A stretch of 64,000 nt of DNA, taken from Deltaproteobacteria bacterium (GTDB taxonomy: Bacteria; Desulfobacterota; Binatia; UBA9968). The position numbers and the translations under genes are program-made. Location: positions 1 to 64,000 of the forward strand of contig SHYW01000003.1 of assembly GCA_009692615.1 (NCBI GenBank), written 5' to 3'. The notes beneath the pieces are model-generated. The model searched no databases. It saw nothing but the letters and a program-made list of their open reading frames with translations, and had not been told where the DNA came from. Positions 154 to 54,196 of the stretch are shown in pieces; the first letter of the stretch is position 1; each line of letters starts with the position of its first letter.

Positions 154-1884
154 TTAGTATTTTCCTCTAAGAATCGCGGTTTCTTCCTCGTGCAATTCGA
201 AGTCGCCGCCAGCTTCACGCAGCGCGACGCCGTATTGCGAACGGGCGCAGCCGATGGACACGTAGCCTTGGCGCACGTCTTCGAGAACTTTTTTCGGGTT
301 GCGTTTGAAGGGATTGCCGAGGCCGCCGCCGCCGGGCCGTTCGACGCGGATGGTGTCGCCTTGCCGCAAGCGATGGTCGCCGAAGCGCGATGGTAGATGC
401 TTGGCAGCGTTTGATTGTAGATTGACCACGCAGGCACCTTTGCCGCCTGGCAGACCCTCCTCGCTGCCGAATGGTTCGATGGCATGTTTGTCGGTGCGCA
501 TGGAGAAGCGCACTTCGTCGGCGAGAATCCGGTAGTCGCGAGCGAAGCCCAGGCCGCCACGCCATTCGCCGGCGCCGCCGGAGTCGGCGAGCATTTCAAA
601 GCGTTCCACTCGGGTGGGGAACTCCGACTCGATGATCTCGATGGGCGCGGTTTTGCAGTTGCTCAGATGGAAAGCCGTCGCCGACACGCCGTCTTTGCCC
701 GAGCGCGCGCCGGTGCCGCCGCTGAAGATTTCGTAATGGACATACGCGCGATTGGACTGCGCGTCGCGGCCGCCGAGCACCAAGGCGCCGCTGCCGGAGC
801 CGCCGGCGATGCGCTTGTCCGGCACGAAGGCCGCCAGGGCATTCAGGATCGCTTCGGCCGCGGTGAGCGCTGTCGGCATGTAAGTATTCACCGCCGCCGG
901 AAAGCGCGGATTGACCACGCTGCCGTCGCGGAAGGTCGCATCGATGCAGCGGGCGAGGCCTTGGTTGATCGGCAGGAAACGATCCACCAGCGCAACTAAA
1001 CAGTAGGCGCAAGCGGCGCGCACCAGTGGCGGGCGAATGTTCGCCGGCCCTTGAGTCTGATCGCTGCAGCCGCTGAAGTCGAAATGTAATCTGTCGCCGG
1101 TCTTGTTTACTTTGACATGAATGCGGATCGGCTTGGTGAGATCGATGCCGTCGTGATCGACGAAGCTTTCGCCTTCGGACTCGCCGTCCGGCCAACCGGC
1201 GATGGTCTGGCGCACGCGCCGTTCGGTATAAGCTGAAAGTTGTTCGGTGGACTCGACGATCGTCGCTTTGCCGTAGCGCTCCATGAGTTCGCAGACCCGT
1301 CGTTCGCCCAAGCGCGCCGCGCCGACCTGGCCGCGCAGGTCGCCGATCACCAGCGCCGCGGTGCGGCTGTTGGCGGCGATCATCGCTTCTATTTCTTTCA
1401 CCGGTTTGAGTTCGGCCATGAACTTCACCGGCGGCAGGTGCAAACCTTCTTGATAAATTTCCCGCGCGTTGCCGCTGCCGCTGCCGGGCACGGTGCCGCC
1501 GATGTCGCTCTTGTGCGCCATGTTGGCGGCGAAGCCGACCAATTCATTGTCAAAATAGATCGGTGTGAACACGCCCATGTCGGGCGCATGAGGGCTGCCG
1601 CCGAGATAAGGATGGTTGGTGATGAAGGCGTCGCCGGGATGAATTTCCTCTTGAGAAAAAGTTTTCAAGATCGCCGCGGCGCAGGCGGGAAAGGCGCCCA
1701 TGTGGAGCGGCAGAACGACGTGCTGGGCGATCACTTCGCCCTGGGTATTCAAGATCGCGCAGCTGGCGTCTTGGGATTCACGAATAATCGTCGAGTAGCC
1801 GGTGCGAAATAAACTGTTCTGCATCTCCTGGACGATGCCGGCCAGGCGCGCTTGGATGACTTGCAGGGTGATGGGATCGACCAT
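154..1884 (-). CDS. hyuB: hydantoinase B/oxoprolinase family subunit, copy 1
   Basis: The 576-aa product belongs to the HyuB family, which pairs with a HyuA-type ATPase subunit to form ATP-dependent hydantoinases or oxoprolinases and, in relatives, acetone or acetophenone carboxylases. It is full length: an N-terminal 'TLQVIQARLAGIVQEM' helix, 'ITNHPYLGGSPHAPDM' at residues 88-103, and a Gly-rich 'RPGGGGLGNP' near the end. I chose the ATG at 1884 because upstream codons lie inside a palindromic repeat and the second copy starts at the same place. It is last in the order hyuA-hyuB-hyuB and closely resembles the copy upstream, so a tandem duplication is likely. No Shine-Dalgarno is visible. The substrate cannot be told from sequence. 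Confidence 0.9.
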   Translation of the reverse strand: MVDPITLQVIQARLAGIVQEMQNSLFRTGYSTIIRESQDASCAILNTQGEVIAQHVVLPLHMGAFPACAAAILKTFSQEEIHPGDAFITNHPYLGGSPHAPDMGVFTPIYFDNELVGFAANMAHKSDIGGTVPGSGSGNAREIYQEGLHLPPVKFMAELKPVKEIEAMIAANSRTAALVIGDLRGQVGAARLGERRVCELMERYGKATIVESTEQLSAYTERRVRQTIAGWPDGESEGESFVDHDGIDLTKPIRIHVKVNKTGDRLHFDFSGCSDQTQGPANIRPPLVRAACAYCLVALVDRFLPINQGLARCIDATFRDGSVVNPRFPAAVNTYMPTALTAAEAILNALAAFVPDKRIAGGSGSGALVLGGRDAQSNRAYVHYEIFSGGTGARSGKDGVSATAFHLSNCKTAPIEIIESEFPTRVERFEMLADSGGAGEWRGGLGFARDYRILADEVRFSMRTDKHAIEPFGSEEGLPGGKGACVVNLQSNAAKHLPSRFGDHRLRQGDTIRVERPGGGGLGNPFKRNPKKVLEDVRQGYVSIGCARSQYGVALREAGGDFELHEEETAILRGKY

Positions 1885-1888
1885 GGGG

Positions 1889-1984
1889 TAGGCAATAGGC
1901 ATTAGGCAACAGGCAATAGTAGGAAAACCGGACAACGAATGACTGGCATCTTTCTGTTGCCTATTGCCTGTTGCCTGTTGCCTG
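1889..1984. repeat. GGCAAYAGGC palindromic intergenic repeat, copy 1
   Basis: Two arms (1889-1919 and 1954-1984), each built from near-identical GGCAAYAGGC units, are reverse complements over about 31 nt with 6 mismatches, around a 34-nt centre. The element fills the gap between the two hyuB genes. It supplies the last codons and the TAG stop (1961-1963) of the upstream hyuB, and it takes the place where the downstream hyuB would carry a ribosome-binding site. Confidence 0.85.
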
Positions 1985-3709
1985 CGCGCGCAGTGCGCTA
2001 GTTTGCTGCTGATTGATCACGTAATCCGCATCCGCGCTATCGATCGCCACGCGATAAACTTCCCGCGCGCGCGCTTGGGTCACGTAGCCGTTGCGCACGT
2101 CGTTTAAGACGCGCGCTGGGTCGCGGGTCAGTGGATCGCCTAGGCCGCCGCCGCCGGGGGTTTCTAGACTGAAGACTTCGCCGGGATGCATGACATGGTC
2201 GGAGAAGCGCGATGGGATCACGCGCTCGCCGGCTTTGCCGGGATTGAGCACGCAGTGGCCGGTCCTGCCATCGCTGCCGCCGTCGATGCCCTTGGGCGCG
2301 ACGCTGTGTTTGGTCGAGCGCAGCGAGAAACGCGCGTCGTTGTCGAGCATCTCGTATTCGCGGACGAAACCCAAGCCGCCTCGAAATGCTCCAGGGCCGC
2401 CGGAGTCGGCGATCAGTTCGAAGCGATTGACCCTGGTGGCGAATTCCGATTCGATGATTTCAATCGGCGCGATTTTGGCATTCGATTGATTGACATTGGT
2501 TCCCGACACGCCGTCCTTGCCGCTGCGGCCGCCGGAGCCGCCGCCAAAGATTTCATACTGCACATAACCCTTGCCGGTTTTGTTGCTGCGGCCGCCGATG
2601 ATGATCGACCGGCTGCTGCAGCCGTCGCCGACCTTTTTGTGCGGCGTGATTTGGCTCGAGGCTTCGAGCAGCGCCTCCACCAGGGCGTGGACGGTCGGAT
2701 TGTAAGTATTCACCGGCGCGGGAAAGATCGGGTTGACCACGCTGCCGTCGCGCACTTTGATTTCGATGCAGCGCGCCAAACCATAATTGATCGATAACGC
2801 CGGATCGACCAGGCAAGTCATCAGATAGGCGCAGGCGGCGCGCACGATGGTCGGGCGAATATTCGCCGGCCCCTTGGTCTGATCGGCGCTGCCGGTGAGA
2901 TCGAAGAGCACACGGTCGCCTTTTTTCTCCATGCGCACATGCAGACGCACGGGTTTGTCGAGTTCAACGCCGTCGCTGTCGACGAAGCGTTCGCCGGTGC
3001 CCTCGCCGTCGGGCCAGGAAGCGATTTCCTTGCGTACTTTGGCTTCGGTGAGGTCGAACAATTCATCGAAGGCGGTTAGAATCGTCTCTTTGCCGTAGCG
3101 CTCCATCATTTCTTGAAAGCGCCGTTCGCCCAGACGCGCCGCGCCGACTTGGCCGCGCAAATCGCCGATGACCAATTCCGGCGTGCGGCTGTTGGCGGCG
3201 ATCATCGCTTCGATGTCTTTGCTGATCTGCAACTTGTGCACGAATTTAATCGGCGGGACGTGCAGGCCTTCTTGATAAATTTCCCGCGCCTGACTCCAAC
3301 AGCTGCCCGGCACTGGCCCGCCGATGTCGCTCTTGTGCGCCAGGTTGGCGGCGAAGCCGACCCATTCGCCCTTAAAAAAAATCGGCGAGAGCACCGCCAT
3401 GTCGGGCGCGTGAGGACTGCCGCCAAGATAAGGATGGTTAGTAATGAAGGCATCGCCTTCATGGACTTCGTCGGCAGTGTAATTTTTTAAAATTCCCGCG
3501 GCGCAGGCGGGAAAGGCGCCCATGTGCAGCGGCAATACGACATGCTGCGCGACGACTTCGCCGGCGCGATTCAAGATCGCGCAGCTGGCGTCTTGCGATT
3601 CTCGAATGATCGTCGAGTAGCCGGTGCGGAACAAAGAGTTTTGCATCTCCTGGACGATGCCGGCCAGGCGCGCTTGGATAACTTGCAGGGTGACGGGATC
3701 GACGGTCAT
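1961..3709 (-). CDS. hyuB: hydantoinase B/oxoprolinase family subunit, copy 2
   Basis: This 582-aa HyuB family protein is full length and strongly similar to the neighbouring copy; the first 46 residues after the start are nearly identical. It carries the same 'ITNHPYLGGSPHAPDM' and 'GDLRGQVGAARLGERR' stretches and the Gly-rich C-terminal 'TPGGGGLGDP'. It lies 80 bp downstream of hyuA, so it is probably cotranscribed and supplies the large partner subunit. The ATG at 3709 has no visible Shine-Dalgarno, and the gap is filled by a strong hairpin. Its final seven residues (QATGNRQ) and stop are encoded by the GGCAAYAGGC repeat, so the original C-terminus may have been replaced when the repeat arrived. 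Two B subunits with one A subunit could form a heteromeric complex, but that is inference. Confidence 0.9.
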   Translation of the reverse strand: MTVDPVTLQVIQARLAGIVQEMQNSLFRTGYSTIIRESQDASCAILNRAGEVVAQHVVLPLHMGAFPACAAGILKNYTADEVHEGDAFITNHPYLGGSPHAPDMAVLSPIFFKGEWVGFAANLAHKSDIGGPVPGSCWSQAREIYQEGLHVPPIKFVHKLQISKDIEAMIAANSRTPELVIGDLRGQVGAARLGERRFQEMMERYGKETILTAFDELFDLTEAKVRKEIASWPDGEGTGERFVDSDGVELDKPVRLHVRMEKKGDRVLFDLTGSADQTKGPANIRPTIVRAACAYLMTCLVDPALSINYGLARCIEIKVRDGSVVNPIFPAPVNTYNPTVHALVEALLEASSQITPHKKVGDGCSSRSIIIGGRSNKTGKGYVQYEIFGGGSGGRSGKDGVSGTNVNQSNAKIAPIEIIESEFATRVNRFELIADSGGPGAFRGGLGFVREYEMLDNDARFSLRSTKHSVAPKGIDGGSDGRTGHCVLNPGKAGERVIPSRFSDHVMHPGEVFSLETPGGGGLGDPLTRDPARVLNDVRNGYVTQARAREVYRVAIDSADADYVINQQQTSALRAQATGNRQ

Positions 3710-3717
3710 GAATGGTT

Positions 3718-3790
3718 AGGCAACAGGCAATAGGCACCAGGCAATAGTAAGAATTCCGAACATCCTACTGTTGCCTATTGCCTGTTGCCT
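3718..3790. repeat. GGCAAYAGGC palindromic intergenic repeat, copy 2
   Basis: Arms at 3718-3740 and 3768-3790 pair over 23 bp with one mismatch around a 27-nt loop. The element belongs to the same family as 1889-1984 and fills almost the whole hyuA-hyuB gap, overlapping the hyuA TGA stop at 3790-3792 by one base. As RNA it would form a very stable hairpin just before the hyuB start codon. Confidence 0.9.
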
Positions 3791-5859
3791 CATGCCTTCT
3801 CCTTTATGATGATATTTCGATACTCATCCACGGCCGCTTCCTGTTCCGGCTGAATTACGGTCGTGGTGTCGAGTTGTTCGACGATGGCCGGGCCGGTGAT
3901 TCGATGTCCCGGCTCGAACAGGTCGCGGTTATAAACTTGGGTCATGAGCACGCCGTGTTCTTTACCGAAGAAGACTTTGCGCTCGCCGGTTTTCGCTGCT
4001 TCAACTTTTCGTCCGGTGACTTTTCCCGGCGACAGTTTCGCCTGGGGCACCAGGCCGAGGGAAATCAATCGCAGACTGACCAGCTCCACCGGTTCGCTCT
4101 CGGCTTTGTGGCCGGAGTTCTGCTCGTGCATGGTGTCGAAGCGGCCGCGCATGAGAGTCAGATCATGCCTGGTGAACGGCGGCATGGACGCGGGCACGGT
4201 GAGTTCGTAGCCTTGGCCGGCGTAGCGCAGATCGAGATAAGGTTCGATTTTGATTTCTTCGTCGCTGAAACCTTCGCTGTGCAGATCAGCTTTGGCGCGC
4301 TCGATCAACTGATGAAACATATGGTTGATCTCGGCTAAATCTAAATCGTCGAGGCCGACGAGTTTCGAGCGCACGTAGTCGTGCTTAACATCGGACATCA
4401 ACAGACCCAGAGCCGAGTGCACACCCGGTGTCAGAGGCACGAGCACCGATGGAATGCCGAGATCGAGCGCCATTCTGCCGGCGTGCATCGGCCCACCGCC
4501 GCCGAAGGCGACCAGCGTGAAGTCGCGGATGTCATAACCGCGCGCGGATGAAACCGCTTTGATCGCTTCTTCCATCTTGGCGTCGATGATTTTCAAGACG
4601 CCGTCGGCGGCTTCGAGCAAATCGAGCTTCAACGGCTTGGCGAGTTTTTCCTGCAAGACGCGCTCGGCTTTGGCTTTGTCGAGCTTCATGCGGCCGCCGA
4701 GAAAGTGATTGGGATCGAGGACGCCGCAGACCATATTCGCGTCCGTGACGGTGATGTTCTCGCCGCCGCGGTCGTAGCACACTGGGCCAGGATCGGCGCC
4801 GGCGCTATCGGGACCGACTTGCAAGCCGCCCACGGCGTCGATGCGCGCAATCGTCCCGCCGCCGGCGCTGACCGTATGAATGTCCAACATCGGCAGCGCA
4901 ATCGGTCGCAAATTTATTTTTCCCTGCGTCGTGATCACCGGATTGCCTTGATGGATCAGCGCGACATCGCAGCTCGTGCCGCCCATGTCGAAGGTGATGA
5001 TGTTGTTGATGCCGACCCGCTCGCAAGTTCCCATCGACGCGATGACGCCGCCGGCGGGGCCGGAGAGCACCGTCGCCACCGGTTTTTCCGCCGAGCCTTT
5101 AAAGGTCGACACGCCGCCGTTGGACTGCATGATGTAGAGTTTCGGCGTGGTGACGCCCAGCTCTCTCATTCGGCTTTCAAGGCGGCCCAAGTAGTTCGCC
5201 ATCACCGGCGCGATGTAGGCGTTGATCACCGTGGTGCTCAACCGATAGAACTCGCGGATCTGCGGCAGGACTTCGTAGGACAGCGATAGGCGTGCTTCGG
5301 GAAATTCCTCGGCGAACAGCTCTTTGATTTTCAGTTCATGGTCGGGATTCAAAAACGAAAAGAGAAAACAGACGGCGACCGATTGCACGCCTTTTTTCTT
5401 GAGGCTGCGCACAGCTTGGCGCGACGCTTCGACGTCGATCGCCTTCAGCGCGTTGCCTTTGAAGTCGACGCGCTCGGGAATTTCTTCGGTGAGATAAGGC
5501 GGCGCGAGCAATCTTGGCTTTTCGAAAAACAGATCGTAGGTCGCCGGGCCGTAGCCACGGGTCTGCTCCATCACTTCGTAAATGCCGCGAAAGCCCTGGG
5601 TGACCAGCAGGCCGGTCTTGGCGCCTTTTTCTTCGAGCAGCGTGTTGGTGCCGACCGTGGTGCCGTGGCAGAAAAACGACACGTCGCCGGCGGTGACGCC
5701 TTGATCGATCAGTTCTTTGACGCCGTTCAGTACGGCTTGAAACGGTTCCTTCGGTGTCGACGGCACTTTGGTGATGGCGATCTCGCCGTTGTCTTCGTTG
5801 AAGAAAACGAAATCGGAAAAGGTGCCGCCGGTGTCAACGGTAACTCGGTACTTGGACAT
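3790..5859 (-). CDS. hyuA: hydantoinase A/oxoprolinase family subunit
   Basis: The 689-aa product is a HyuA-type ATPase subunit of the ASKHA fold. The N-terminal phosphate-binding loop reads 'VDTGGTFSDF' (residues 8-17), a second nucleotide-site motif 'DMGGTSCDV' is near residue 290, and 'FGGGGPMHA' follows further on. The length is usual for the family. It phosphorylates or activates the substrate carbonyl while the HyuB subunits complete the reaction. It is first in the hyuA-hyuB-hyuB cluster. A terminator at 5929-5966 separates it from the BNR gene upstream, so it probably has its own promoter in 5860-5930, although I see no convincing -35/-10 pair there. Substrate class (hydantoin, oxoproline, ketone carboxylation) is undecided. 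Confidence 0.93.
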   Translation of the reverse strand: MSKYRVTVDTGGTFSDFVFFNEDNGEIAITKVPSTPKEPFQAVLNGVKELIDQGVTAGDVSFFCHGTTVGTNTLLEEKGAKTGLLVTQGFRGIYEVMEQTRGYGPATYDLFFEKPRLLAPPYLTEEIPERVDFKGNALKAIDVEASRQAVRSLKKKGVQSVAVCFLFSFLNPDHELKIKELFAEEFPEARLSLSYEVLPQIREFYRLSTTVINAYIAPVMANYLGRLESRMRELGVTTPKLYIMQSNGGVSTFKGSAEKPVATVLSGPAGGVIASMGTCERVGINNIITFDMGGTSCDVALIHQGNPVITTQGKINLRPIALPMLDIHTVSAGGGTIARIDAVGGLQVGPDSAGADPGPVCYDRGGENITVTDANMVCGVLDPNHFLGGRMKLDKAKAERVLQEKLAKPLKLDLLEAADGVLKIIDAKMEEAIKAVSSARGYDIRDFTLVAFGGGGPMHAGRMALDLGIPSVLVPLTPGVHSALGLLMSDVKHDYVRSKLVGLDDLDLAEINHMFHQLIERAKADLHSEGFSDEEIKIEPYLDLRYAGQGYELTVPASMPPFTRHDLTLMRGRFDTMHEQNSGHKAESEPVELVSLRLISLGLVPQAKLSPGKVTGRKVEAAKTGERKVFFGKEHGVLMTQVYNRDLFEPGHRITGPAIVEQLDTTTVIQPEQEAAVDEYRNIIIKEKA

Positions 5860-8759: not shown

Positions 8760-8920
8760 TCACCACGGAGGACACAGAGGACACAGAGTAGGGGCCGGTC
8801 GCGACCGGCCCGGTCCTGGTTCGGAAAAATTAACCGCACCCTTCGACGTTGCTCAGGGCAATCGGGGCGCAAAGAGCGCAAAAAAAATTCTGACGTAGGG
8901 GCGACCGGCGGTCGCCCTTC
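8760..8920. repeat. composite palindromic repeat array A
   Basis: Five modules stand in series: CACCACGGAGGACACAGAGG (8761-8780); GTA followed by the perfect 20-nt palindrome GGGCCGGTCGCGACCGGCCC (8792-8811); CCGCA (8835-8839) followed by a CCCTTCG...CTCAGGG insert (8840-8868); CGCAAAGAGCGCAAA (8869-8883); and a second GTAGGGGC hairpin with arms 8899-8906 and 8910-8917. The same modules recur in this order at 21478-21620 and in part at 12426-12515 and 33376-33486. Confidence 0.85.
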
Positions 8921-17799: not shown

Positions 17800-18215
17800 T
17801 GTCGGACTCTCGCTTTCTATTAGCTGATGGTTTCGCACGGGCAGCGAACTTCTGTCAACGAGAACAGCCTGGTTGCGTCAGTGTTAGTTCGAGCGTTGCT
17901 AAAAATGTTCTAGCTGCGCGTGGGGGAAAATCCCCCTTGATCCCCCTTTTCTAAAGGGGGATATGGATGCTAGACAGCTACCTGCACGTTCACGGGTCCA
18001 GCGAACGAAATGTCGCGCATGATCAGTTCTTCAAAGGGGGGAAGTTTAAAGTCTCCCTTTGTAAAGGGAGATTTAGAGGGATTTTGCCGATTGCGCGCCG
18101 CGACAAACTCGCCGGGGAAAAAACCGCCGTCAATAATTGCCACCGAAAAACCGTCCGCCGACTATTTCTTTACCGCTGATTAGAATTTTTCATCCGCCTA
18201 CGTTACACTCGTCAG
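17800..18215. other. divergent intergenic region with GGGGGAT palindromes
   Basis: This 416-bp gap separates the amidohydrolase and the SNF2 gene. It contains GGGGG-AAAAT-CCCCC (17922-17936), a perfect 10-bp hairpin (17940-17949 with 17953-17962, ATCCCCCTTT/AAAGGGGGAT) and a perfect 9-bp hairpin (18052-18060 with 18063-18071, TCTCCCTTT/AAAGGGAGA). The copies at 35314-35332 are related. No gene is supported. I see no promoter good enough to call. Confidence 0.7.
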
Positions 18216-21477: not shown

Positions 21478-21620
21478 TTTCACCACAGAGGACATGGTTC
21501 GACTCCGCTCACCACAGGCGACGATCACAGAGTAGGGGCCGGTCGCGACCGGCCCGGTCGGAGTCGGAAATTTAACCGCACCCTTCGTCACGCTCAGGGC
21601 GACCGGGAACGCAAACTACG
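21478..21620. repeat. composite palindromic repeat array C
   Basis: Modules: CACCACAGAGGACA (21481-21494), interrupted by a GGTTCGACTCCGCTCACCAC segment (21497-21516); GTA plus the 20-nt perfect palindrome GGGCCGGTCGCGACCGGCCC (21536-21555), identical to that at 8792; CCGCA (21576-21580); a CCCTTCG...CTCAGGGC insert; and CGCAAACTACGCAAAG (21610-21625 region). Order matches array A. Confidence 0.85.
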
Positions 21621-28558: not shown

Positions 28559-28632
28559 TTCACCACGAAGGCACGAAGAGCACGAAGTTCGGAGTTGAAA
28601 GTTCCGAAACCTTCGTGTCCTTCGTGGTGAAT
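28559..28632. repeat. CACGAAG palindromic repeat inside the nusA operon
   Basis: Left arm TTCACCACGAAGG (28559-28571) continuing as CACGAAGAGCACGAAG; right arm CCTTCGTGTCCTTCGTGGTG (28610-28629). The two ends are reverse complements around a centre of about 35 nt. Related elements are at 30671-30763, 42725-42807 and 45517-45592. This copy fills the rbfA-truB gap. Confidence 0.88.
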
Positions 28633-30644: not shown

Positions 30645-30670
30645 TCGATGGCGTGCTGTCAAATATATTC

Positions 30671-30763
30671 TCACCACCAAGGACAGGAAGTGCACGAAGT
30701 AGGGGCGCCGCATGCTGCGCCATTACACGAACCCTTCGTGTCCTTCGTGATCTTCGTGGTGAG
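30671..30763. repeat. CACGAAG palindromic repeat with a nested GTAGGGGC element
   Basis: Outer arms TCACCACCAAGGACAGGAAG (30671-30690) and CTTCGTGTCCTTCGTG...CACGAAGA-type sequence to 30763 pair as in the CACGAAG family. The centre (about 30699-30722) holds GTAGGGGCGCCGC-ATGC-TGCGCC, a member of the GTAGGGGC hairpin family. One repeat family therefore lies within another. Confidence 0.75.
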
Positions 30764-30888
30764 ATCAGACTTTCTCATGGAACGTGAACACTTAGGAGCA
30801 CCGGACTGGAAGCGGCACAAACTTCAGTTTGATCCGCCAGCCAATCGGCGCTATTAGTCAAAAACTGCCGGTTTAGAATTGCCTCACC

Positions 30889-35313: not shown

Positions 35314-35332
35314 CCCCCTTTGAAAAAGGGGG
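35314..35332. repeat. CCCCCTTT/AAAGGGGG hairpin
   Basis: Arms 35314-35321 and 35325-35332 around GAA form an 8-bp stem; a second GGGGGATTT follows to about 35346. It belongs with the 17922-18071 family and lies between convergent genes (33527 and 35409). Confidence 0.75.
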
Positions 35333-35408
35333 ATCGAGGGGGATTTAACTTTGCGCGCAGAAGAAAATCTCCTCCCCTTTCTCAAAGCGGGTGATTCAAT
35401 TCAATTTG

Positions 35409-38194: not shown

Positions 38195-38259
38195 GGAACT
38201 AGATGTCAGTTGTCAGGAGTCAGTAGTCAGAAGTTCGCAGTGGGTTGGGGTTTTGTCGG

Positions 38260-41602: not shown

Positions 41603-42703
41603 ATGGCAGATGCAGGAAGTTTGAAAACCTTAAGCAAGGCGGGTAATGAGCTCGGCGCCAAGACGACGTACCAGTTGTTTCTCGAAAAAGAAGCGCTTCC
41701 GGCGCTACGCGGCTTTCACATTGACGATATCAATACGGTGGAACTCCATTCCTGGGCCCGGTTTGACGGGCGCGGCGTGTTTCTCAATCTTGACGGTTCG
41801 GAGGGTGTCAACGATTGCTACATCGTCGAGATCGCCCCAGGAAAATCGCTGGCGCCGCAGCGTCATATGTTCGAGGAGCTGGTTTACGTCGTCAGCGGCC
41901 ACGGCGCGACGACTGTGTGGCAGGAGGGCGGTAAAAAACAAACTTTTGAATGGGGCCAAGGCGCATTGTTTTCGCCGCCGCTCAATGCCAGCTATCAGCA
42001 TTTCAACGGCGCCGGCGACAAACCGGTGCGCTTGTTGGCGATGACCAACGCGCCGACCGTGCTCAATCTCTACCACAACATCGACTTCGTCTTTAATTGC
42101 GATTACCGCTTCACCGACCGCTATGCCGGCGAGGAGGATTTTTTTAACGGTGTGGCGAAGATTCCCGGCGCTGGGTTCCACGACACCAACTTCATCCGCG
42201 ATGTGCGCGCTTATGAATTGCCGGACCGCAACGACCGCGGCGCTGGCGGCAAGATGTTGATGATCGAGATGTCGAACAACGTCATGTCGGCGCATATCTC
42301 GCAGTTCCCCGTGGCGACCTACAAGAAGGCCCACCGCCACGGCGCCGGCGCCCATGTGATTATCCTCAAGGGCGAAGGGTTCTCGATGGTGTGGAAAGAA
42401 GGCGAGGACATCAAGCGCTACAGCTGGAGCCCCGGCAGTTTGATGGTGCCGCCCGAACGTAGCTTTCATCAACACTTCAACGTCGGCGCCGAGCCGGCGC
42501 GTTACCTGGCGCTGAAACCGTTTAGCAGCCGCAAATTTCCCGGCCTGCGCAAACAATGGGGCACTTCGGAAAGCGTCAAGTTGGGCGGCGATCAAATCGA
42601 ATATGAAGACGAGGCGCCGCTGATTCGCGCGACTTTCGAAGAAGAACTCGCCAAGCGCGGCGTCACGAGTCGGATGGGGCCGGTTTACAAGGCGGCGAGC
42701 TGA
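41603..42703 (+). CDS. bicupin protein
   Basis: The 366-aa protein has two cupin barrels. The first has 'PQRHMFEELVYVVSGHG' with 'GALFSPPLNASYQHFN', and the second has 'KAHRHGAGAHVIILKGEG' with 'GSLMVPPERSFHQHFN'. Histidines and acids are retained in both, so each may bind metal. Bicupins of this length include oxalate decarboxylases, gentisate-type dioxygenases and quercetinases, and I cannot choose between them. 'GAGG' or 'AGAGGT' upstream of the ATG at about 41590 serves as ribosome-binding site. A binding-protein gene and a gentisate-dioxygenase-like gene follow. Confidence 0.82.
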   Translation: MADAGSLKTLSKAGNELGAKTTYQLFLEKEALPALRGFHIDDINTVELHSWARFDGRGVFLNLDGSEGVNDCYIVEIAPGKSLAPQRHMFEELVYVVSGHGATTVWQEGGKKQTFEWGQGALFSPPLNASYQHFNGAGDKPVRLLAMTNAPTVLNLYHNIDFVFNCDYRFTDRYAGEEDFFNGVAKIPGAGFHDTNFIRDVRAYELPDRNDRGAGGKMLMIEMSNNVMSAHISQFPVATYKKAHRHGAGAHVIILKGEGFSMVWKEGEDIKRYSWSPGSLMVPPERSFHQHFNVGAEPARYLALKPFSSRKFPGLRKQWGTSESVKLGGDQIEYEDEAPLIRATFEEELAKRGVTSRMGPVYKAAS

Positions 42704-42724: not shown

Positions 42725-42807
42725 TTACCACGAAGGACACGAAGTGCACGAAGCTCGGAGATTGAAATTTGCGAATCCTTCGTGGAGCATCGTGTCCTTC
42801 GTGGTGA
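42725..42807. repeat. CACGAAG palindromic repeat
   Basis: Arms TTACCACGAAGGACACGAAG (42725-42744) and CGTGTCCTTCGTGGTGA (42791-42807) pair around a 46-nt centre. It is the same family as 28559, 30671 and 45517, and fills the gap between the bicupin and the binding protein. Confidence 0.88.
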
Positions 42808-45516: not shown

Positions 45517-45592
45517 ATTAACCACGAAAAACACGAAAGGGTCGGCAAGCTAATTCCGATTTTCGTGTGTTTCGTGCCTTTCGTGGTTAAAT
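45517..45592. repeat. CACGAAA palindromic repeat variant
   Basis: Arms ATTAACCACGAAAAACACGA (from 45517) and TTTCGTGCCTTTCGTGGTTA (about 45569-45588). It is an A-for-G variant of the CACGAAG family, so base changes in one arm are matched in the other. It separates the PPOX gene from the amidohydrolase at 45610. Confidence 0.82.
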
Positions 45593-54113: not shown

Positions 54114-54196
54114 TGGAGTAATGGAATGTTGGAGTGATGGGTAATTCGGATTCCTACCTTCCCCATTACTCCAACGCTCCAGTACTCCAATCTTAT
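54108..54196. repeat. TTGGAGTAATGG inverted repeat
   Basis: Left arm TTGGAGTAATGGAGTAATGG (from about 54106) and right arm ending CCATTACTCCAACGCTCC-AGTACTCCAA (about 54162-54189) are imperfect inverted copies around a short centre. The element runs from the stop of the Fe-S subunit gene to just ahead of the BNR gene and overlaps the stop. Confidence 0.75.

Follow-up and report, generated by a model that had tools for sequence, protein, structure and literature searches.

The genes of a hydantoinase (hyu) operon in the 64,000-nucleotide stretch of DNA analyzed here (the window) are separated by two hairpin-forming elements, J1 and J2, which we regard as probable (roughly 60%) members of a genome-wide set of non-autonomous, REPIN- or MITE-like hairpin repeats whose sites persist and whose contents are replaced, as we infer, by re-insertion or break repair. 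Occupancy of such sites outlasts their contents: Gaps filled in one genome are far more often filled in its relatives than empty gaps of equal residual length are, and the repeat unit found there is frequently a different one. Throughout this work, G000 denotes the genome that contains the window, G001 to G004 are genomes of the same genus, f1 is its own family, and f3 is another family of the same order.

Tandem-armed palindromes in the hyu operon and across the genome

The hyu operon is transcribed from the minus strand in the order hyuA (positions 5859-3790), J1, hyuB1 (3709-1961), J2, and hyuB2 (1884-154). Its open reading frames encode, by Pfam, one protein with Hydantoinase_A domains (hyuA, a hydantoinase A or N-methylhydantoinase-type subunit; PF05378, PF01968, and PF19278) and two Hydantoinase_B proteins (PF02538). 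As originally predicted, each hyuB copy is preceded by the same palindrome, built of tandem GGCAAYA units with 23-nt arms: J1 (approximately 3714-3797) has arms at 3718-3740 and 3768-3790 around a loop of 27 nt, and J2 (approximately 1889-1984) has arms at 1897-1919 and 1961-1983 around a loop of 41 nt, with the outer boundaries of both set by additional, poorer units outside these arms. The two elements are similar to each other at 84% over 49 nt and at 89% over 37 nt, and the J1 loop holds the apex word TTCGGA/TCCGAA (3755-3760). RNA folding yielded -46.2 kcal/mol for J1 and -46.5 kcal/mol for J2 (z of -7.6 and -5.3 against shuffles) and thus predicts a strong hairpin ahead of each hyuB start, through which hyuB expression might be changed. 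An Rfam scan of the window gave no match above any family's gathering score.

The original prediction had tied this repeat to hyuB, and within the window the association stands, with all 9 matches to GGCAAYAGGC located in J1 or J2 (shuffles predict 0.30). Genome-wide it does not, as the unit is dispersed: GGCAAYAGGCAAYAGGCA occurs with up to 2 mismatches at 118 places in G000 and its reversed control at none. We ran a palindrome detector on 799,113 bases (the window and 40 other stretches, approximately 16% of the genome), which at a net score of at least 15 returned 60 palindromes, 28 of them with tandem arms of 6- to 9-mers, and none in shuffled DNA (one shuffle per stretch); two or three of the 28, of the TCCGTCATGCC and CCTCTCCC types, passed the period filter yet resemble other kinds of repeats. 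Elements of this class are about 50-110 bp long, often with an apical TTCGGA...TCCGAA stem, occupy gaps behind genes at a short distance from the stop codon, and are rarely located between divergent genes; their units in G000 include GGCAAYA, TGGAGTAY, CACGAAGRN, CACAGAGRN, CGCAAAGRN, and ATTCCAA. The window itself contains, besides J1 and J2, a CACGAAGRN-type palindrome with TTCGGA apex (28559-28628, recognized by eye and missed by the detector), a CACGAAG-type tandem palindrome of period 9 (30669-30764), a GTCAGTA direct array of period 7 (38201-38234) whose orthologous gap in G004 is filled by a two-armed palindrome of the AGTCAGTAGTCAGGAGT type, a CACGAAGRN palindrome (42727-42805) with CACGAAGRN in G004 too and CGCAAAGG in G001, a CACGAAA palindrome of period 9 (45518-45590), and a TGGAGTAY palindrome of period 8 (54114-54189).

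The apex word is strongly enriched in the loops of these elements, with 14.25 occurrences of TTCGGA per kb in 80 loops compared to 1.14 per kb elsewhere between genes and 0.35 within coding sequence; similarly, TCGGA or TCCGA was found in 50 of 78 loops compared to 14.9 in shuffled loops, in a set that is not independent since it includes orthologues and members of the same family. Comparison of loops from G000 (11 GGCAAYA elements) and G004 (11 GGCRYGA elements) found none of the near-identical ones that recent whole copies would have. These data also bear on the idea that each element is born locally, through slippage and fold-back copying of adjacent sequence and with no mobility involved. 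Such an origin would suit the 3' end of hyuA, where GGCATGA shares the register of the J1 units (by eye), as well as the reported homogenization of inverted-repeat arms by template switching (PMC8604942). Yet identical units stand at dozens of places and the TTCGGA apex is common to the elements, and we consider local birth very improbable because dispersed identical units need transfer between sites.

Other repeats were encountered alongside this class. An exact 34-bp repeat at 8782-8815 and 21526-21559 of the window contains GTAGGGGCCGGTCGCGACCGGCCC and resembles a GTAG-tagged REP, and CCCCCTTTGAAAAAGGGGG-type repeats at 17914-17960 and 35314-35360 represent another dispersed palindromic family of G000. 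A stretch of about 112 bp at the start of G000 contig C19 (L209:35-146) recurs in G004 with approximately 90% identity, terminally or close to an end on at least 27 contigs; this high-copy repeat probably interrupts assembly.

Occupancy of gene slots outlasts their contents

Stretches of G001 to G004 were mapped onto G000 (74-85% DNA identity in blocks), resulting in 228 slot-by-relative pairs over 137 slots, of which 33 were occupied in both genomes, 32 in G000 only, 24 in the relative only, and 139 in neither. Because an element lengthens its own gap, we compared gaps by their residual length with the element removed, using gaps of up to 60 bp and excluding divergent ones. The relative was occupied in 26 of 49 such pairs when G000 was occupied and in 2 of 79 when G000 was empty, and leaving aside the loci chosen for having a G000 element gave 20/36 compared to 2/43. 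A different unit was present in 16 of the 26 pairs with shared occupancy, where the empty-gap rate predicts about one. A control restricted to long gaps (at least 50 bp in G000 and at least 20 bp in the relative, non-divergent) gave an odds ratio of 2.2 (p = 0.058), or 1.8 (p = 0.34) once the chosen loci were removed, with all p values of the slot test being too small since pairs share slots and genomes; in our view this control conditions on the element itself, yet it makes clear that the raw signal is due mostly to gap size.

Among all 33 pairs occupied on both sides, 19 had different units and 14 the same, compared to 3.6 same-unit pairs when families were dealt at random (maximum of 10 in 2,000 trials). 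Loops could be aligned (z > 5) in 5 of the 14 same-unit pairs and in 1 of 17 different-unit pairs (2 of the 19 were dropped for loops shorter than 8 nt), which leaves a model of arm rewriting around a retained "barcode" loop unsupported. With loops unconserved in 16/17 different-unit and 9/14 same-unit pairs, no replacement event can be seen directly, and the loops favor neither arm-only rewriting nor recent whole copying. At one slot (L193:14967), G000 and G004 have right arms (CACGAAG and CACAGAG, respectively) that are in register and have a common GGTGAAAA end by eye, an alignment that would instead suit unit-by-unit change.

A shift of units was observed in G004, where the exact sequence GGCRYGAGGCRYGAGGC, representing the GGCRYGA unit, occurs 38 times compared to 5, 2, 0, and 3 times in G000, G001, G002, and G003, respectively; GGCAAYA nevertheless persists in G004, with 23 matches at up to 1 mismatch. 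Of the GGCAAYA slots in G000, eight were resolved in G004, and five of these carry GGCRYGA arrays there (J1, L209:13051, L210:9765, L109:4443, and L208:5821; one of the five is one-armed). The remaining three hold a GGCAAAA-like array (J2), a CGTGYT array (L207:5131), and unchanged GGCAATA (L012). Viewed from the other side, 2 of 18 G004 stretches around GGCRYGA sites were resolved on both flanks (L281 and L291) and make six together with four known ones, with GGCAAYA in G000 at five of these sites and TGGAGTR at one. The GGCRYGA unit is probably derived at L209:13051, because arrays resembling GGCAAYA are found at this locus in G001 and G003 too; we are unsure of the branching order of G000, G002, and G004.

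Could junctions that are hot spots simply draw independent insertions again and again, with frequent loss and irrespective of any prior element? Elements do lie close behind stop codons (median distance of 10 nt for the 48 G000 gene ends that have a tandem-armed palindrome no farther than 60 nt away), and the relative was scored as empty in 23 of the 49 short-residual pairs. However, empty gaps of equal residual length were occupied in only the 2 of 79 pairs given above, same-unit pairs exceed random dealing, the five same-unit pairs with alignable loops reflect true inheritance, and the G004 unit sits at G000 GGCAAYA slots in five of six resolved cases. Furthermore, inspection by eye shows that many pairs scored as empty contain arrays that are weaker or of another kind (such as L204:11909 in G001 and G004, and L207:5131 in G004). 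Overall, we view recurrent hot-spot insertion as unlikely. As a limit on the slot test itself, two "empty" pairs at window position 42703, where the flank is poorly aligned, may be paralogues. Six slots were aligned with empty relatives, and their flanks are too diverged to read a target duplication.

We extended the comparison to the hyu junctions of more distant relatives, using 24 stretches behind hyuA or hyuB1 from 14 f1 genomes and 10 stretches from 5 f3 genomes (G011, G021, and the 952-bp hyuB1-hyuB2 gap of G007 were left out, and the G016 stretch behind hyuB1 ends at the contig end). A period of 7 or 9 was found in 22 of the 24 f1 stretches, at a value reached by no more than 3 of 200 shuffles, with J2 of G023 and G020 as the junctions lacking a significant period; no palindrome above a low threshold was detected in 8 of the 24. 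The f3 stretches showed periodicity in 1 of 10 (J2 of G028, period 6). At least five unit types can be told apart by eye at the f1 junctions: GGCAAYA in G000 and partly in G001, GGCRYGA together with GGCAAAA in G004, GGATSGA in G010 and G015, 9-mers around TGGAACGAC in G017, G014, G020, and G023, and GAGTTTT or TTTTGAA types in G016, G018, and G006. J1 of G007 has a nested look by eye, with GGCAGTA-like arms flanking a TTGAGTT array, and looks like an insertion into an older palindrome.

This recurrence could also be expected if RNA hairpins at these junctions were under selection, for example in mRNA end protection, attenuation, or translational coupling, so that any element supplying one would be kept and contents would vary. 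The folds of eight hyu junction stretches were all stronger than their own shuffles (z of -2.8 to -8.5), the f1 junctions are periodic in nearly all stretches as just described, and translation of hyuB1 would run into J2. Moreover, elements are rare in divergent gaps, which hold 1 of 57 intergenic palindromes and make up 86 of 433 gaps of at least 60 bp (orientation taken from a home-made gene finder with 801 genes; 3 of the 60 palindromes lie inside predicted genes). Against this, the f3 relatives have the same operon without such arrays in 9/10 stretches, and there is wide variation among the unit families in both sequence and stem strength. We judge selected hairpins to be a rather unlikely explanation. 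Hot or selected junctions could be a source of the slot counts too.

An old hyuB duplication and variable gene ends

The original prediction proposed that recombination between the repeats had duplicated hyuB in tandem. The repeat ahead of each copy and the likeness of J1 and J2 would fit this scenario, in which we nevertheless place almost no credence. The order hyuA-hyuB1-hyuB2 is common to same-genus, f1, and f3 relatives wherever contigs extend far enough. We built a tree from 15 hyuB1 and 15 hyuB2 proteins (15 genomes each, f1 and f3) with 7 outgroup proteins, in which the two copies lie on either side of a branch with a single label change (group-table support of 100/100); for the clade lines, support is 100/95 and 100/100, and the outgroups fall outside both. 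The copies thus form old, separate lineages, the very outcome that the original prediction had named as refuting it; they are 62% identical in protein sequence, and the GGCAAYA pattern (up to 1 mismatch) was found in 0 of 9 f3 genomes. Because both lineages are shared by f1 and f3 and f3 has no match, the GGCAAYA repeat did not cause the duplication, which is older than and independent of these elements, and we rejected repeat-mediated duplication.

As separate observations on these genes, hyuB1 and hyuB2 (window 154-3709) share 87% identity in their first 100 residues and 44% in the last 82, a gradient that recurs in G001, G014, and G018, is shallower in G028, and may reflect constraint or partial gene conversion. 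The hyuB1 tree pairs G000 with G004 and the hyuB2 tree pairs G000 with G002; interspecies recombination is a possible reason for these discordant groupings.

Regarding gene ends, the hyuB1 protein (the first-transcribed copy, previously called copy 2) ends in RAQATGNRQ-stop, of which QATGNRQ is encoded by the array and the stop codon lies within J2, as predicted from the sequence. Relatives' hyuB1 C-termini vary with the local array: By eye, tails read QATGNRQ in G000, QAIGNRQ in G001, QA in G004, TQV in G002, NAEDRE in G010, DAEDRE in G017, and AQQL in G014, and they are array-encoded in G000, G001, G010, and G017. The variable C-terminal tail of hyuB1 is an effect of the elements at hyuB. 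More broadly, 7 of the 48 G000 gene 3' ends introduced above have their stop inside a tandem-armed palindrome, six of them in period-7 units (two of the 7 stops are inside by only 4-5 nt and one belongs to a weak 105-nt ORF). The final Ala-stop of hyuA was not donated by a GGCAAYA unit, because G010, with a different array, has it too (by eye).

The start regions of both hyuB copies lack a purine-rich Shine-Dalgarno sequence by eye, as do all 8 junction starts inspected by eye in G000, G001, G002, and G004. Genome-wide, AGGA, GGAG, or GAGG precedes 272 of 770 genes, compared to 0 of 7 genes whose start lies within 15 nt of an element and 13 of 20 with an element at 16-60 nt. These counts, small as they are, are consistent with the suggested replacement of the Shine-Dalgarno sequence by the element at both copies.

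Known repeat systems and possible routes to replacement

The REPIN or REP doublets of other bacteria are extragenic inverted doublets that form hairpins, come in many families per group, and are non-autonomous, with doublet spacings of 71 and 110 bp (PMC3116915, PMC3686654), and the elements described here are likewise extragenic, inverted, hairpin-capable, and present at high copy number. An "orthoswitch", the spread of new REP variants that may in part supplant existing ones, has been described (PMC3686654). Different from REPINs, arms consist of tandem 6- to 9-mers here, and replacement is seen slot by slot at orthologous gaps. REP palindromes are reported to end in a GTAG or CGTC tag (PMC3733652), which is absent by eye from the outer ends of J1 and J2. 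We also considered a REP-RAYT pairing, in which the repeats flank the gene of their cognate Y1 transposase (RAYT), and rejected it: Approximately 3.3 kb around each of the two Y1 transposase (Y1_Tnp) genes of G000 (about 290 aa; G000:C78:2693-3025 and G000:C21:44397-44720) contain no tandem-armed palindrome or GGCAAY array, in a genome of 186 contigs from which a copy may be missing.

REPINs are nearest in behavior, and paired tandem oligomers of Geobacter metallireducens are nearest in anatomy. The latter, described as "global regulator binding sites" of classes 1-4, are paired octa- or heptanucleotide tandem arrays on opposite strands in dozens of copies in and between genes (PMC2700814), and paired 7- to 8-mer arrays on opposite strands are found here in dozens per genome as well. 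Their units (GTTGCTYN, MTYCTGA, and TCTCCGTS) differ from ours when compared by eye only and are interpreted there as regulator sites; unlike our analysis, the accessible parts of that study do not compare orthologous positions (PMC2700814). In the P6b stem of the Nostoc tRNA-Leu(UAA) intron, degenerate heptamers pair into a hairpin and two repeat classes occur at one site (PMC3488679, citing Costa et al. 2002), though this is a single cyanobacterial intron stem and not a set of genome-wide intergenic slots. The TAACTGA repeats of Beggiatoaceae are intergenic heptamer arrays just before starts where canonical ribosome sites are rare, but they are direct (one inverted case of 170) and of a single unit (PMC4679880), whereas J1 and J2 are built of inverted GGCAAYA units. 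Bacterial MITE-like repeats are short and non-autonomous and can fuse to ORF ends, such as RU-3 in a LivJ-like protein, at its C-terminus (PMC2229807); in contrast, we found no related transposase (among the two Y1 genes). The flanks of the six aligned slots are too diverged for a target duplication to be read. The component features are thus already known, and slot-by-slot replacement is new as far as our search goes: Open-access titles and abstract beginnings contained no account of unit replacement at conserved slots, a search largely outside the subscription literature that does not imply absence.

How might contents be exchanged at a persisting site? An existing element would make its own site the likely location of the next one, by either of two routes. 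New elements may land within or next to an old palindrome, the arms of which decay afterwards, and insertion sequences have indeed been reported to insert at REPs (PMC1525189). Alternatively, the palindrome may break or stall replication, with repair copying an element from elsewhere. Complementarity of the arms would be maintained by template switching, and tandem units by slippage. Our tentative proposal, which we hold to be possible and no stronger, is a self-perpetuating slot in which each hairpin is the target of the next, so that junctions throughout a genus or family would inherit a hairpin with its sequence overwritten from a changing pool of units that share little beyond the TTCGGA apex.

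Orthologous slots with a changing occupant separate the inheritance of a site from the inheritance of its sequence, and thereby make it testable how short bacterial palindromes spread and persist when no transposase is evident. If true, a self-perpetuating slot would amount to site-level concerted evolution without a dedicated transposase that continually rewrites gene ends and leader hairpins. If the pattern is general, gene ends, operon hairpins, and protein tails at such places would have to be viewed as fast-changing rather than conserved sequence.
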